Shown here: positions 5,991-38,535 of the stretch, piece after piece
How the letters are laid out: every line of letters begins with the position of its first letter
Numbering within the stretch: position 1 is the first letter of the stretch
From: Hamadaea sp.
Lineage (GTDB): Bacteria > Actinomycetota > Actinomycetes > Mycobacteriales > Micromonosporaceae
Assembly (NCBI RefSeq): GCF_013362815.1
Contig: NZ_JABFVK010000067.1
Span: 1 to 64,000, forward strand
Direction: 5' to 3'
DNA length: 64,000 nucleotides
Made by a program: the position numbers and the translations under genes
The notes under the pieces: generated by a model
Told to the model about the DNA's origin: nothing
The model's input: only the letters and a program-made list of their open reading frames with translations
The model's database searches: none

Positions 5991-6072
5991 GTTGATCATG
6001 AACTTACGGTCCTGCTCGACGGCGTGTCGGCGTCCTTAGGCCCGTGATCAACTCCCCAAGGTAATGATCAAC
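5991..6072. repeat. GTTGATCATGAAC-family palindromic element, copy D1
   Basis: Starts GTTGATCA (5991-5998) and ends TGATCAAC (6065-6072), with an inner GTGATCAAC at 6044-6052. It fills the gap between two convergent genes. The terminal TGATCA provides the TGA stop of the sulfotransferase (bases 6068-6070 on the minus strand). The left part, GTTGATCATGAACTTACGGT then GGCGTGTCGG, closely matches the ends of the larger element at 29271-29459. Confidence 0.75.
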
Positions 6073-13186: not shown

Positions 13187-13239
13187 GATCAGGGTTCTGG
13201 GCCGAATCTTGCGCGATGATTCGACCCAGAAACCTGATC
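13187..13239. repeat. Palindromic element family A, copy A1
   Basis: Arms GATCAGGGTTCTGGGCCGAATC and its near-complement (20 of 22 positions) around a nine-base loop. It lies between the convergent TetR and thioesterase genes. The surrounding 13129-13270 region shows no other feature. Confidence 0.85.
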
Positions 13240-18259: not shown

Positions 18260-19762
18260 GTGCCCGTGACTGGGGGGCTCTCAAGATCGATCATCGCGCT
18301 GACGGCCGCTTTGTGCCTGATCTCAGCGGCGGCCTGCAGCAATCCCGACGACGTACGCGTACTGCCGGGGGCGAGCACATCACCGACGCCGGGCAGTTCG
18401 GCGGCTCCAGCGGCGTACGCCGGATTCTCCGATCCGGCCGGGGTCGGCAAGCCGTACGGGACCAAGGTGAACGGGCTGCTGACCTTCCGCGGCAACCCCA
18501 CCCGGTCGTACTTCGGCACCGGTCCGGCGCTCCGGACGAAGCCGACGCAGTTGTGGCGGTTCCCCAAGTCAGGCAGCCTGTGCCACCCGTCGACGGATGA
18601 GAAGGGCACCCGGATCTGGTGCGGTTCCGGGTGGACCGGCCAGCCCGCCGTCTTCGAACGCGACGGCCGGACCTGGGTGGTCTTCGGGGCGTACGACGCG
18701 AAAGTGCATTTCCTCGACGCGAACACCGGCGAGCGCATCCTCCCGGACTTCCCCACCGGTGACATCATCAAGGGCTCGGTAACCATCGATCCCGACGGAT
18801 TCCCGCTGGTCTACTCCGGTTCGCGCGACAACTACTACCACATCATCGCGATCGACCGCGGCAAGCCGGTCGAGCTCTGGAAGCTCTCCGCGCACGCGGT
18901 CTCGCCGACCAAGTGGAACGACGACTGGGACGGCGCCGGGCTGATCATCGACGACTACCTCTTCGAGGGTGGCGAGAACAGCCAGTTCCACATCGTCAAG
19001 CTCAACCGGGGCTACGACGCCAACGGCAAGGTCACGGTCAAGCCGAAGCTGGTCTTCAACGCACCGGGCTGGGATTCCGAGCTGCTCAAGGCGATCGGCG
19101 ACGGCATGGTGTCGATCGAGAACTCCGTCGCCATTTATCAGGACACGGTGTACTTCGCCAACTCCGGCGGCCTGGTGCAAGGCTGGGACATCAGCGGCCT
19201 GAAGACCGGGAAGAAGCCCACCCGGGTGTTCCGCTTCTGGACCGGCGACGACACCGACGCTTCCATCACCGTGGACGCCGACGGCTTCCTCTACGTCGGC
19301 TCCGAGTTCGAGCGGAACAACGCGCGCTCCCGGCAGGTCGGCCAGATGATGAAGCTCGACCCACGAAACAAGACCAATCCCCTGGTCTGGAGTCAGAAGG
19401 ACCAGCATCCGCCGAAGTCCGGGATCTGGGGTTCGCCCGCGCTCTACAAAGACATCGTCATCTTCGACACCCATCCCGGCGACGTGCTCGGCATCGACCG
19501 GGCCACCGGCGAAGTCCGCTGGAAGTTCCGCGTACCGGGCGGTGAGACGTGGCAGTCGCCGGTGGTCGTCGACGACGTGCTCTACCTGGGCGACTGCACC
19601 GGCGTGATGCGCGCGTACGACGTCGCGGACACACATGCGGAGCCGAAACTGTTGTGGTCGATGAAGATCGGCGGCTGCATCGAGTCGACCCCCGCTGCCT
19701 GGAACGGCCGCATCTACTTCGGTACGCGCGCCGGCGGCATCGTCGCGCTCGGCAACCGCTAG
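18260..19762 (+). CDS. PQQ-like beta-propeller lipoprotein
   Basis: 500 residues from GTG 18260. A lipoprotein signal ends in SAAAC. The mature part holds repeated blades of the pyrrolo-quinoline quinone-like type (for example VHFLDANTGERI, VLGIDRATGEVRWKF, LYLGDCTGVMRAYD and IYFGTRAGGIVALGN). No PQQ-dependent catalytic residues are evident, so it is more likely a binding or scaffold protein on the outer face of the membrane than a dehydrogenase. It seems to be a single-gene unit, followed at once by a palindromic element. Confidence 0.85.
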   Translation: MPVTGGLSRSIIALTAALCLISAAACSNPDDVRVLPGASTSPTPGSSAAPAAYAGFSDPAGVGKPYGTKVNGLLTFRGNPTRSYFGTGPALRTKPTQLWRFPKSGSLCHPSTDEKGTRIWCGSGWTGQPAVFERDGRTWVVFGAYDAKVHFLDANTGERILPDFPTGDIIKGSVTIDPDGFPLVYSGSRDNYYHIIAIDRGKPVELWKLSAHAVSPTKWNDDWDGAGLIIDDYLFEGGENSQFHIVKLNRGYDANGKVTVKPKLVFNAPGWDSELLKAIGDGMVSIENSVAIYQDTVYFANSGGLVQGWDISGLKTGKKPTRVFRFWTGDDTDASITVDADGFLYVGSEFERNNARSRQVGQMMKLDPRNKTNPLVWSQKDQHPPKSGIWGSPALYKDIVIFDTHPGDVLGIDRATGEVRWKFRVPGGETWQSPVVVDDVLYLGDCTGVMRAYDVADTHAEPKLLWSMKIGGCIESTPAAWNGRIYFGTRAGGIVALGNR

Positions 19763-19845
19763 TCGATCACCTCCTCGCGGAGTCGATCAGGCTCCCGCGG
19801 CCACGACACACCGGCCGATCACGCCCGATAGTTCATGATCGCGCG
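19762..19845. repeat. GTTGATCATGAAC-family element, copy D5
   Basis: GTCGATCACCTCCTCGCGGAGTCGATCAGG begins one base inside the preceding TAG and the element ends near TTCATGATCGCGC. It aligns along its length with the element at 38452-38535 (CTCGCGGAGTYGATCAGG, ACACGACAC, GTTCATGATC), so this pair forms a subfamily. (First motif quoted by position 19762-19791.). Confidence 0.65.
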
Positions 19846-26385: not shown

Positions 26386-26424
26386 CCCTTTCGCGTTGCC
26401 CTTTCGCGTTGCCCTTTCGCGTTG
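26386..26424. repeat. Three perfect 13-bp tandem repeats
   Basis: CCCTTTCGCGTTG at 26386-26398, 26399-26411 and 26412-26424, with no mismatch. The last copy runs into GTTGATCATGAAC of element D3. The identical copies suggest recent slippage. Confidence 0.9.
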
Positions 26425-26512
26425 ATCATGAACTAACCGGGGTGATCGACAGCGTTTTCGCAGGTCGCCAATCCCACTCGTGGGTGATCGACTCCGCGCA
26501 GTCATGATCGAC
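26421..26512. repeat. GTTGATCATGAAC-family element, copy D3
   Basis: The ends GTTGATCATGA (26421-26431) and TCATGATCGAC (26502-26512) are inverted repeats at 10 of 11 positions. Inside are GGTGATCGACAGCG and GGGTGATCGACTCCG, a degenerate direct repeat. It lies between osmC and the tetR gene. Confidence 0.65.
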
Positions 26513-28815: not shown

Positions 28816-29277
28816 GTGACTGATCTTGCGATACGCCGCGCCACCGCAGCCGACCTGCCCGCCATCGTGGCCATGCTCGCCGATGACCACTTGGGAGCGA
28901 CCCGGGAGGGCTCGCCCGACGATCCGGCGTACGCCGAAGCCTTCGCGGAGATCGACGGCGATCCGCATCAGCGCCTCGTCGTCGGCGAGTTGAACGGTGA
29001 GGTGATGGCGACGATGCAACTCACCATCATCCCCGGCATCGGGCGCAAAGGAGCCCGCCGCGCGCTCATCGAAGCGGTACGCGTCCGCTCCGACCTGCGC
29101 GGCGGCGGGCTCGGCAAGCAGCTCATCCGCTGGGCGATCGACACCGCCCAGACGGAAGGCTGCGCAATGGTGCAGTTGACCAGCGACAAGTCGCGGACGG
29201 ACGCACACCGGTTCTACGACCAACTCGGGTTCACGCAGAGCCACGTCGGCTACAAGCTCACCCTGCCGCCGCGTTGA
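28816..29277 (+). CDS. GNAT family N-acetyltransferase
   Basis: 153 residues from GTG 28816, seven bases after TATCGT, so likely leaderless. The acetyl-CoA-binding segment VRVRSDLRGGGLGKQLIRWA has the R-x-x-G-x-G/A pattern (here RGGGLG), and the C-terminal HRFYDQLGF strand is typical. The acceptor is unknown. Its TGA (29275-29277) is inside the left end of palindromic element D2. Confidence 0.9.
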   Translation: MTDLAIRRATAADLPAIVAMLADDHLGATREGSPDDPAYAEAFAEIDGDPHQRLVVGELNGEVMATMQLTIIPGIGRKGARRALIEAVRVRSDLRGGGLGKQLIRWAIDTAQTEGCAMVQLTSDKSRTDAHRFYDQLGFTQSHVGYKLTLPPR

Positions 29278-29459
29278 TCATGAACCTAAGGTTCCGCCGG
29301 GCGGCGTGTCGGCCCCACAAGCCCGTGATCAACACGGCGTGGCGCGCCGGTGATCACGGCGCGGCGCGGCGGGTTGATCACGGCGCGGCGCGCCGGTTGA
29401 TCACGGCGTTCGGGGGCGTGACACGCCGCCGAGGCGGACCTTAGGTTCATGATCAACGC
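29271..29459. repeat. 189-bp element D2: 40-base inverted ends around four 23-bp tandem repeats
   Basis: The left end (29271-29310) and the right end (29420-29459) are inverted repeats: the first 22 bases are identical and the inner 11 too, with a one-base shift between. Inside are four tandem units of GTTGATCACGGCGCGGCGCG type at 29325-29349, 29350-29372, 29373-29395 and 29396-29418. The TGA stops of the two convergent neighbours lie in the ends. No coding frame fits it. It may be a miniature mobile element or a structured RNA/terminator. Confidence 0.85.
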
Positions 29460-31501
29460 GCGATGAAGAGGTCGCCGGAGGGGGACGAGGCGAAGGTGAG
29501 GCCGCTGATCAGGAGGCGGCCGTCCGGCGCTGCGGCCGCATAGAGGTTGGGCTCCGCGAAGGCGTCGACGACCTCGTCCCGGGGTGAGCCGAACTGGCTC
29601 TTGGCCAGCACCGCCCCCTTGGCCGAGAGGCGTACGCACAACACGTCGGAACCTCCGGCCGCCACGGTCACCCGTCCCCGGGTGTACCCGACGAGGTCGA
29701 CTCCGCCGTCCGCGCGCGCCACCACAGCCACACCGCCGTCCGCCGCACCGCTGTCCACAGTGGTGGTCCAACGCTCGGAACCGTTGCTGCTGAACGAGAC
29801 TGCGATCAGGTCGCCGTTCGCCGCTCCAGTCGCCACGGCGTACCCGCCGCTGACGGTGACTCCGTCGAGCCGGTCGTCTCCACTGCCGCCGACGGCCTTG
29901 ACCCAGCTCAGCGCGCCCGCATCGGTGTACCGCGCGACGAAGCCGTCGTAGCCGCCCAACCCGGATGTGCCGGGCAACGGCGATCCGGCGGTTCCCGAGA
30001 CGTAGACCTCTGAGATACCAGCGGTCACTGCGAATGCCTTGTCCTCGCCCGGTCCGCCCAGTTGGCGTACCCATTGAAGCTGACCGGAAGGAGCCACGCG
30101 GGCCAGGAACGTGTCCTTGTCGCCCGCGTTGGCGCCGTCGAGCGCGCCCTTGGTGTAGCCGGTGACGTAAGCGCCGCCGTCGGGGCTCGCGGCCAGGCCG
30201 TAAGCGCGGTCGGCGACCCCCGCGGACCCGAATTGCGTGATCCAGCGGATCGATCCCGAAGCGTCGAGACTGGCCACGAAGGCGTCGTCCGCGGCATTGC
30301 CCGCGTGCTGTCCGTCCAGGTCGCCCTTGGTGTAACCGGCGACCAGCACGCCACCGTCCGGCTGCGCGGCCACGCCGTAGAGACGCTCGTCCACCGCGGT
30401 CCCGAACTCGGTGGTCCAGCTCCCCGGCCTGGTCACGACCGCGTCGAGTTTCCCGTGGTACGCCTGACCGTCCACACTGGCGCTCGCCGCGAAGCCGACG
30501 GTGTACGCGTCGCCACCGACGCTCGCGATGCCGCCCGCCCAATCGGTGCCGGCCGTGCCCAGCAGCGGAGTCGGCAGCGGCTGCGGCGGAACAGTGCTCA
30601 GCGTCGGACCGAGATGCTGGATGGCCTGGGCGAACGCGGGCGCCCACACGGTCCAGTCGTGTCCGCCGTCGAGGATGCGCATCTGCGCGCTCACGCCGGG
30701 TGCGCGGCGGGCGGCGTTGTAGAGCGCCTCGGATTCGAAGTCGAGGTCGTGCCGCGCGTCGGCCGGATCGGGGTTGGCCCACTCGTCGTCGCCGACCGCG
30801 ATGAACAGCTGCACCGGAAGGTCGGGACTGGTCTTGGCAAGTAGCGCTGGGTAATTCAGGTCTTGATAGCGCTGGTCGTCGAAGAGCTGATCGCCGACCC
30901 CGTACGCCCCGAATTCGCGAGCCGAGGAGTCGGCGGGCGGCAACGGGGTGTAGACCGCCGGGCTCAGCACGATCGCCGCGCTGAACACGTCCGGGTGCGC
31001 GAGAGCGAAGCGGAGCGCGCCCGCTCCTCCCATCGAATACCCCCCGACCAGTCTCGCCTGCCTGATCGGAGCGGTCCTCCAGGTGCTGTCGACGTGCTTG
31101 ATCAGATCGCGCGTCAGGGCGGTCTCGACGGACTTGCCGCTCTGGTATCGGGAATCGACGTACCAGCTGCCCCGGTCGCTCCACGGCGCGTCGGGGAGGA
31201 TCGCGATCAACGCCGGAATCTTCTTGGCCTGGATCAACTCGTCCAACGTGGACTTCACGGTCGTCCACGCCGTCATCGTGTCGCCCCGGCCGTGCAACAG
31301 GTAGAGCACGGGGTACCGCTGTGTTCCGGCTTCGTACCCGTACGGGAGATAGGCCGTGTAGTCGATGTCCTCGCCCAGCGCTGCGCTCGGGGCGCTGCCG
31401 GTCACGAGCTCGCCGGGACGCGTACGCCCCGCTTCCGCAGTGCCGACGCCGCCGATCAGCAGCACGAGGACGGACAGGACGGGGATGAGGAAACGCTTCA
31501 C
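29453..31501 (-). CDS. Secreted esterase fused to SBBP-type beta-propeller repeats
   Basis: 682 residues from GTG 31501 (GAGGAG upstream) with a Sec signal (cleavage near AEAG). Residues about 35-310 form an esterase-D/CE1-like alpha/beta hydrolase: LYLLHGRGD, nucleophile Ser156 in GGYSMGG, and His in DGGHDWTVW. Residues about 320-682 hold repeated units of the form GVAAQPDGGVLVAGYTKG, LAASPDGGAYVTGYTKG and similar, i.e. seven-bladed-bundle SBBP repeats. It probably cleaves ester bonds on polysaccharides, using the propeller to bind. The stop lies in element D2. Confidence 0.88.
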   Translation of the reverse strand: MKRFLIPVLSVLVLLIGGVGTAEAGRTRPGELVTGSAPSAALGEDIDYTAYLPYGYEAGTQRYPVLYLLHGRGDTMTAWTTVKSTLDELIQAKKIPALIAILPDAPWSDRGSWYVDSRYQSGKSVETALTRDLIKHVDSTWRTAPIRQARLVGGYSMGGAGALRFALAHPDVFSAAIVLSPAVYTPLPPADSSAREFGAYGVGDQLFDDQRYQDLNYPALLAKTSPDLPVQLFIAVGDDEWANPDPADARHDLDFESEALYNAARRAPGVSAQMRILDGGHDWTVWAPAFAQAIQHLGPTLSTVPPQPLPTPLLGTAGTDWAGGIASVGGDAYTVGFAASASVDGQAYHGKLDAVVTRPGSWTTEFGTAVDERLYGVAAQPDGGVLVAGYTKGDLDGQHAGNAADDAFVASLDASGSIRWITQFGSAGVADRAYGLAASPDGGAYVTGYTKGALDGANAGDKDTFLARVAPSGQLQWVRQLGGPGEDKAFAVTAGISEVYVSGTAGSPLPGTSGLGGYDGFVARYTDAGALSWVKAVGGSGDDRLDGVTVSGGYAVATGAANGDLIAVSFSSNGSERWTTTVDSGAADGGVAVVARADGGVDLVGYTRGRVTVAAGGSDVLCVRLSAKGAVLAKSQFGSPRDEVVDAFAEPNLYAAAAPDGRLLISGLTFASSPSGDLFIAR

Positions 31502-31557: not shown

Positions 31558-31608
31558 GCGAGTGTCGTCCTCGTGATCATCGGTGTCAAGGTCGCTCCCT
31601 TCCGGCCG

Positions 31609-31667
31609 CCAGATCAGGGTTCTGGGTCGAATCATGGCGCGAGATTCGACCCAGAACCCTGATCTGG
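31609..31667. repeat. Palindromic element family A, copy A3
   Basis: Perfect 25-base arms (31609-31633 and 31643-31667) around a nine-base loop. Unlike the other copies it lies in a divergent promoter region, between the esterase and merR starts, which argues against a pure terminator role. Confidence 0.9.
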
Positions 31668-31714
31668 CGCGCAAAGCGGCGGTCGCGGCGAGGAGCCCGA
31701 GCTACCGTTGGCCG

Positions 31715-38451: not shown

Positions 38452-38535
38452 GTCGATCACCCGCTCGCGGAGTTGATCAGGGAGCCCGGGACACGACACG
38501 CCGGACGACCGGGACCACAGGTTCATGATCAACGC
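38452..38535. repeat. GTTGATCATGAAC-family element, copy D4
   Basis: Ends GTCGATCA (38452-38459) and TGATCAAC (38526-38533), with GTTCATGATCAACGC next to the stop of the YhgE-like gene. It is the closest relative of element D5 (19762-19845). It lies between the YhgE-like and tetR genes of one operon. Confidence 0.65.

Follow-up and report, generated by a model that had tools for sequence, protein, structure and literature searches.

A dispersed, probably mobile REP/MITE-like palindrome family at gene 3' ends in Hamadaea and other Micromonosporaceae

We analysed a 64-kb stretch of the genome of Hamadaea sp., hereafter the window, in which a 185-bp element separates two convergent genes and supplies the stop codon of both. 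The element is a head-to-head dimer of two palindromic units of about 61 bp that has gained further units on the inside, the two ~61-bp units remaining outermost. We favour, as a somewhat probable reading, that it is an enlarged copy from a mobile REP/MITE-like palindrome family whose members likely serve as bidirectional end-of-transcript hairpins at gene 3' ends. An end-of-transcript hairpin is the most likely effect to judge from the placement of the copies, the capture of stop codons and the covariation of the two arms.

The window element and its two neighbours are laid out as follows.

28816..29277, + strand: GNAT acetyltransferase gene (PF00583), whose stop is the TGA of the left unit (29275-29277)
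29273..29457, no strand: whole 185-bp element, predicted to form a single long hairpin
29273..29333, + strand: left unit of ~61 bp, matching family model R1 with 73.1 bits
29326..29403, no strand: inner expansion with four TGATCA boxes, starting at 29326, 29351, 29375 and 29398
29396..29457, - strand: right unit of ~62 bp, inverted relative to the left one, matching model R1 with 78.3 bits
29453..31501, - strand: esterase gene (PF00756), whose stop is the TGA of the right unit (29453-29455)

The left unit consists of a GTTGATCATGAAC arm, a GGCGTGTCG core and a TGATCAAC inner end. A first-pass annotation of this locus had described inverted ends, internal repeats of 23-25 bp and stop codons of both neighbours within the ends, and each of these features was recovered. 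Indeed, the inverted arms (29270-29310 and 29420-29460) are 41 nt long and 88% complementary, and the inner TGATCA boxes are spaced by 25, 24 and 23 bp. With the outer boxes at 29275 and 29450 there are six TGATCA starts in all, and the GNAT and esterase stop codons lie inside these two outermost boxes. The annotation was also right to suppose an internal expansion, because the window element is a dimer to which inner units have been added: ordinary dimers of ~140 bp carry two inner boxes, against four here. The structure prediction that it had proposed was run, and the element folds as one long hairpin at a predicted -153.5 kcal/mol, against a mean of -84.8 kcal/mol for 60 mononucleotide shuffles. 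When up to 3 mismatches were allowed, a 21-nt end pattern matched the window four times and 100 shuffles not once. Searches of the window against Rfam 15 at the gathering score, of the 189-bp sequence against phages and plasmids at E 1e-5, and of viral contigs for an exact 19-nt end pattern gave no match.

The ends of this element recur throughout the genome (7.45 Mb in 124 contigs). We counted 200 exact copies of the 13-mer GTTGATCATGAAC (96 + 104) and 189 matches (92 + 97) to a 22-nt end pattern with up to 2 mismatches; the reversed patterns gave 0 in both cases. The other three Hamadaea genomes gave 21, 19 and 1 matches to the 22-nt pattern, and exact GTTGATCATGAAC was present in 23 and 18 copies in two genomes of the genus and absent from the fourth. 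Outside the genus, exact GTTGATCATGAAC reached 14-87 copies in each of 11 genomes sampled from a second genus (g17) and 63 copies in the genome G022, while the remainder of the 200 Micromonosporaceae genomes held 0-7, mostly 0 or 1. In a named collection, from which near-self records may be absent, the exact 22-nt pattern was found only in Hamadaea sp. Bin8.36, in 3 stretches. At least 10 contigs of G022 start or stop about 30-170 bp from a family member. The palindromes may break short-read assembly, in which case copy numbers taken from drafts may be underestimates.

To describe more distant relatives we used model R1, built from 74 units and 62 positions long. At E 0.01 it matched 23 of 61 Micromonosporaceae genomes, and at E 1e-4 it matched 16. 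At the looser threshold 14 of the 61 genomes, our own included, had at least 14 matches and nine had 1-6, these numbers being lower bounds drawn from 88 scored candidates; some matches in the nine sparse genomes may be due to chance. The other 38 of the 61 genomes had no match, and neither had any of 118 genomes from other Actinomycetota at E 1e-4, with 45 candidates scored in each. Counting the 14 richer genomes, related palindromes are found in about a quarter of the Micromonosporaceae genomes sampled, in a family that is rich in antibiotic producers. The annotation had suspected a dispersed family and had named the lack of a second copy as evidence to the contrary; with 200 exact ends and 189 pattern matches in its own genome, and relatives in 16 of 61 Micromonosporaceae, a dispersed family is what we observe.

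The basic unit is about 61 bp long (60-62), with inverted ends of the G(T/C)TGATCATGA type around the GGCGTGTCG core. Among 108 elements sampled in the Hamadaea sp. genome, 52 have two strong ends and 56 have one strong end with a degenerate partner. The two-ended elements comprise 37 of 61-62 bp, 12 head-to-head dimers of 139-142 bp, and one each of 100, 185 and 259 bp, so that the 185-bp form of the window occurs once in the 108. A lone unit is a near-perfect hairpin of 61-62 bp. The foot consensus of the ends reads (C/T)C(G/C)C|GTTGATC, and unlinked sites, as well as different genera, have near-identical ends and core. A unit length of 60-62 bp is kept in eight genera despite differing stems, although the 62-position model favours that length. 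Predicted folding energies were -45.2 kcal/mol for eleven 61-bp forms (-13.0 in mononucleotide shuffles) and -108.6 kcal/mol for twelve ~140-bp forms (-51.8 in such shuffles).

The supposition of a structured family gained support from covariation between the arms in dimers, in palindromes and in a set from eight genera. In the dimers (12 own and 4 from other genera) we counted 36 cells changed on both sides, against 11.3 after shuffling and at most 8 with a slid partner. The corresponding counts were 21 against 9.6 (slid, at most 4) in 13 own palindromes of 61-62 bp, and 71 against 30.6 (slid, at most 26) in the eight-genus set of 34, whose alignment holds 30 of 31 units (L233 omitted, L239 read on the opposite strand) together with two from our genome and two from G001, a relative. 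None of 500 shuffles matched any of these three counts; such an excess over shuffles can be obtained from kinship without structure, while the slid controls retain relatedness. Two weaker measures gave a more mixed picture. For dimers, palindromes and the eight-genus set, respectively, the number of pairs changed on both sides was matched by 1, 26 and 31 of 500 shuffles, and the number of further pair types by 6, 62 and 3. The free base of CTANGG is equal in both arms in 22 of 25 two-armed own copies, where 37% would be expected (P 1.6e-7). The asymmetric monomers, taken by alignment alone, showed 7 consensus pairs and no compensatory change, so the structural claim draws on the palindromic and dimeric forms and the cross-genus set. 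Copying between arms by template switching could be another source of the covariation.

We then considered where the elements lie relative to genes, which were called with a home-made GC-frame gene caller. One of the 108 sampled elements lacked two neighbours; the other 107 fell into 46 convergent, 50 tandem and 10 divergent positions, with 1 inside a gene. Spacer length, with the elements removed, would predict 13.5 convergent, 56.1 tandem and 36.4 divergent. The bias is strong whether judged by spacer length (chi-square P 6e-22) or by spacer count (P 3e-8), with control spacers that come from loci chosen for holding elements and are not a genome-wide sample. Among tandem copies 44 of 50 are closer to the 3' end of the upstream gene, and 80 of the 107 elements have a stop codon no more than 30 bp away. 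Purifying selection alone could produce such a bias.

In many cases the stop codon of a neighbouring gene is the terminal TGA of the element itself. The element supplies a neighbour's stop at 31 of 107 loci, and at three of them, the window element included, it supplies both. Gene ends fall exactly on the element's TGA in 34 of 142 neighbouring ends, the next commonest distance being represented by 6. At one locus (C66:31367) the Hamadaea sp. reading frame runs into the element's TGA, and the G001 gene, free of the element, stops on its own TGA, as judged by eye. The placement is similar in other genera, where 32 of 34 loci could be scored (L236 and L243 lacked a neighbour): 14 are convergent, 16 tandem, 1 divergent and 1 inside a gene, a stop is no more than 30 bp away in 23 of the 32, and the element's TGA is the stop in 5 of 32.

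The window holds four further members of the family, all at places that the annotation had picked out as bearing ends of the same type. Their counterparts in G001 were judged by eye from alignments.

5991..6072, + strand: 82-bp family member, flanked by convergent genes; G001 has a counterpart at this site
19762..19845, - strand: 84-bp family member; counterpart of equal length at the same site in G001
26421..26512, + strand: degenerate family member; G001 has a counterpart at this site
38452..38533, - strand (to 38535 in the annotation): family member; G001 has a counterpart at this site

Most of the window aligns collinearly with G001, in blocks of about 79-91% identity, and each of the five window sites is occupied by a family member there. 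At the site of the 185-bp element G001 has a form of about 84 bp in another arrangement. The site is thus old, though the 185-bp form is not shared. The annotation had seen a conserved position in relatives as an argument against a mobile element; the position does prove to be shared with G001, but the enlarged form does not.

A different picture was obtained with a lineage-specific subfamily present at 77 other sites of the Hamadaea sp. genome, 36 of which were compared with G001. Flanks of 34 were found there and two had no usable match; four were represented by one flank only. The 30 sites with both flanks gave 14 short junctions, 10 relatives of the element, 3 unrelated hairpins and 3 unscorable cases, so that the element is missing from 17 of the 27 scorable sites and represented by a relative at the other 10 (two of them, #7 and #24, judged by eye). 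At the short junctions the gap is 9-40 bp; 11 of the 14 are shorter than the Hamadaea sp. site by 58-81 bp, about one element, and three by 111-165 bp. Thirteen of the 14 lack a strong hairpin (z above -2; the other has z -3.1), which speaks against a general need for a hairpin at those gene ends. The three unrelated hairpins are strong (z -9.3, -3.5 and -4.5). Many copies must be old, since the five window sites and 10 of 27 others are occupied in G001. At the sites that differ, gain is favoured over loss because the subfamily is uniform in our genome (189 ends against 21, 19 and 1). The empty sites in relatives that the annotation had recommended looking for do exist, in the form of these 14 short junctions and 3 unrelated hairpins, and a mobile family is supported by the 17 of 27 scorable sites without an element. 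From these empty sites and the lineage-specific subfamily we infer that the family spreads within genomes.

Other repeats were noted besides this family. A second high-copy palindrome family of about 66 bp, with the form GCGCTGGATCAGGGTTC..GGTCGAATC - loop - GATTCGACC..GAACCCTGATCCAGCGC, is present in the window at 31607-31672 and also near 13187, 21505 and 43298. With up to 3 mismatches it gave 20 matches in 0.55 Mb of Hamadaea sp. sequence, 2 of the 14 displayed being non-members by eye. Nineteen copies with two neighbours comprised 10 tandem, 5 convergent, 3 inside or overlapping a gene and 1 divergent. At one Hamadaea sp. site (C124:90053) G001 has, by eye, a copy of this second family in place of the GTTGATCATGAAC element. 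A further short palindrome, AAGATCGTCGGCTTCCGACGATC, occurs near elements in our genome (contig C91 at about 66.65-66.75 kb, and locus L040) and in Hamadaea sp. Bin8.36, and a tandem CCCCGTCTCTCC-like array lies between a stop codon and an element on contig C28 at about 114.45-114.50 kb.

A mobilising gene was looked for among RAYT homologues and between nearby ends, and none could be linked to the family. PF01797 (Y1_Tnp/RAYT) was missing in all four Hamadaea genomes; of 11 other carriers two have it and nine do not, and the control for this search gave matches in 5 of 14. The textbook REP mechanism is ruled out by this absence of RAYT/IS200 from 4/4 Hamadaea and 9/11 other carriers. In our genome and in g17 we looked between 11 pairs of ends separated by about 0.36-1.7 kb and found no transposase: the pairs enclose ordinary genes or none, namely 8 proteins, 2 of them without a Pfam match, with three pairs lacking a called gene. 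No consistent target-site duplication was seen by eye in 16 alignments with G001, in which the spacers have diverged.

The flanks of the elements were examined around 159 strong ends. The 25 bases before the ends contain on average 66% pyrimidines, compared with 53% over the 30 bases that follow 328 other stops, and C occupies position -1 in 87%. Since the flank before the ends is pyrimidine-rich and the element is symmetrical, purines follow the hairpin. Mirrored to the other side, the flank profile gives 3-8% T at the first five bases downstream, and no U-tract was found, so the element is not a canonical intrinsic terminator. The palindromes share with intrinsic terminators a stable predicted hairpin shortly after the stop codon. 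U-poor terminators that are long and stable, lack A-tracts and show covariation are reported for Streptomyces in sections of PMC12207403, so a terminator role would be compatible with what we see. The C-rich upstream stretch might suit Rho.

We propose that a palindrome of about 61 bp would spread within genomes by means of some mobilising enzyme, that its copies are retained at the 3' ends of genes, a neighbour's stop codon often being the element's own terminal TGA, and that the hairpin would act strand-symmetrically, as a bidirectional terminator without a U-tract and/or as a block at the mRNA 3' end. The main rival dispenses with the last step. The family may be purely selfish REP/MITE-like DNA that survives where it does least harm, after stops and between convergent genes, which we regard as possible though unlikely. 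Its lineage-specific expansion and patchy distribution agree with this, as do the few copies in coding or promoter-side spacers (1 inside and 10 divergent of 107) and the 13 of 14 short G001 junctions without a strong hairpin, where evidently none is needed. Neutral decay, however, would not lead to arms that covary within a genome and across genera, even if arm-to-arm copying could mimic this, and the unrelated strong hairpins at three non-family G001 sites hint that some slots keep a hairpin. At the other extreme, the elements could be ordinary terminators that evolved in place and are alike through shared function only. Orthologous occupation of the five window sites and of 10 of 27 others in G001 would fit, but the near-identity of ends and core across unlinked sites and genera contradicts it and element-free sites exist in G001, so that we consider it highly improbable.

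A site for a DNA-binding protein, serving the nucleoid, chromosome segregation or uptake and co-opted at gene ends as inverted pairs, appears improbable to us, if less so than evolution in place. It would account for the 60-62-bp unit in eight genera, a length that the model favours, and for the conserved GGCGTGTCG core, which pairing within the unit does not explain. The 38 of 61 Micromonosporaceae genomes without a match, on the other hand, show the palindrome to be dispensable, and the unit is far longer than uptake signals of 9-11 nt. Terminators formed by uptake signals offer a printed precedent in sections of PMC1852404, where such signals generally number at least 1,000 copies, against about 200 ends here.

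Returning to the mobile family with an end-of-transcript hairpin, we also considered a bolder form of it, which we put forward tentatively and rather doubt: a portable stop-and-terminate cassette, in which a palindrome of ~61 bp (about six helical turns) would be placed at or over stop codons by a non-RAYT enzyme, its own TGA and hairpin bringing both translation and transcription to an end in one neighbour or in both. If this were true, a transposing gene-end module would have re-formatted gene ends repeatedly across Micromonosporaceae. More generally, if the palindromes both move and terminate, operon ends and C-termini would be rewritten in a lineage-specific manner; this would be relevant to how high-GC actinomycetes end their transcripts when strong U-tracts are lacking, and would suggest that a mobilising enzyme awaits discovery. 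Sites that have the element here and lack it in G001 are ready natural tests.

How does this family compare with known systems? The annotation had known of no description of the element, and this stands: among the papers listed by searches of an open-access library we saw no description of this palindrome family, and no paper there joined Micromonosporaceae with REP, or Micromonospora with palindromic repetitive elements. The family is best called REP/MITE-like, although the tests for the REP tag and for RAYT fail. Like REP sequences, its members are high-copy, intergenic and palindromic. PMC3733652 and PMC2817692 describe REP/BIME as high-copy extragenic palindromes that also occur in inverted arrays, as here, and for which transcription termination or mRNA stabilisation has been proposed. 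REP/BIME units measure 20-40 bp, against ~61 bp in this family, and carry GTAG/CGTC tags and are mobilised by RAYTs, whereas here RAYT is mostly absent and the tag is rare: in the 6-bp foot flanks we found GTAG in 1 and CGTC in 5 of 159 ends. The main text of PMC3733652, which deals with REP families and RAYTs, names no Actinobacteria, Micromonospora, Salinispora or Streptomyces, and the RepRanger paper (PMC12306157) names neither Micromonospora nor Streptomyces and mentions Actinomycetota once.

Terminal inverted repeats and a non-coding, dispersed nature are what the family has in common with MITEs in general. Correia-type MITEs are small, non-coding and intergenic, with inverted terminal repeats and size variants, and the family resembles them in all these respects. 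As a difference from MITEs, no target-site duplication was seen in the 16 G001 alignments, with their diverged spacers, and no parent transposon between the 11 end pairs. We know of no DNA-uptake role in Micromonosporaceae. In Neisseria and Pasteurellaceae, according to sections of PMC1852404, DNA uptake sequences form terminators as inverted pairs at gene ends; they share with our palindromes a repeated motif, the inverted pairs and the position at gene ends, and differ in that the palindrome unit is longer, has a core and is present in fewer copies. The U-poor intrinsic terminators of actinobacteria, as presented in sections of PMC12207403, are likewise long stable hairpins just after genes. 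Unlike those terminators, the palindromes described here bear the same primary sequence at many loci, and their presence differs between related species.
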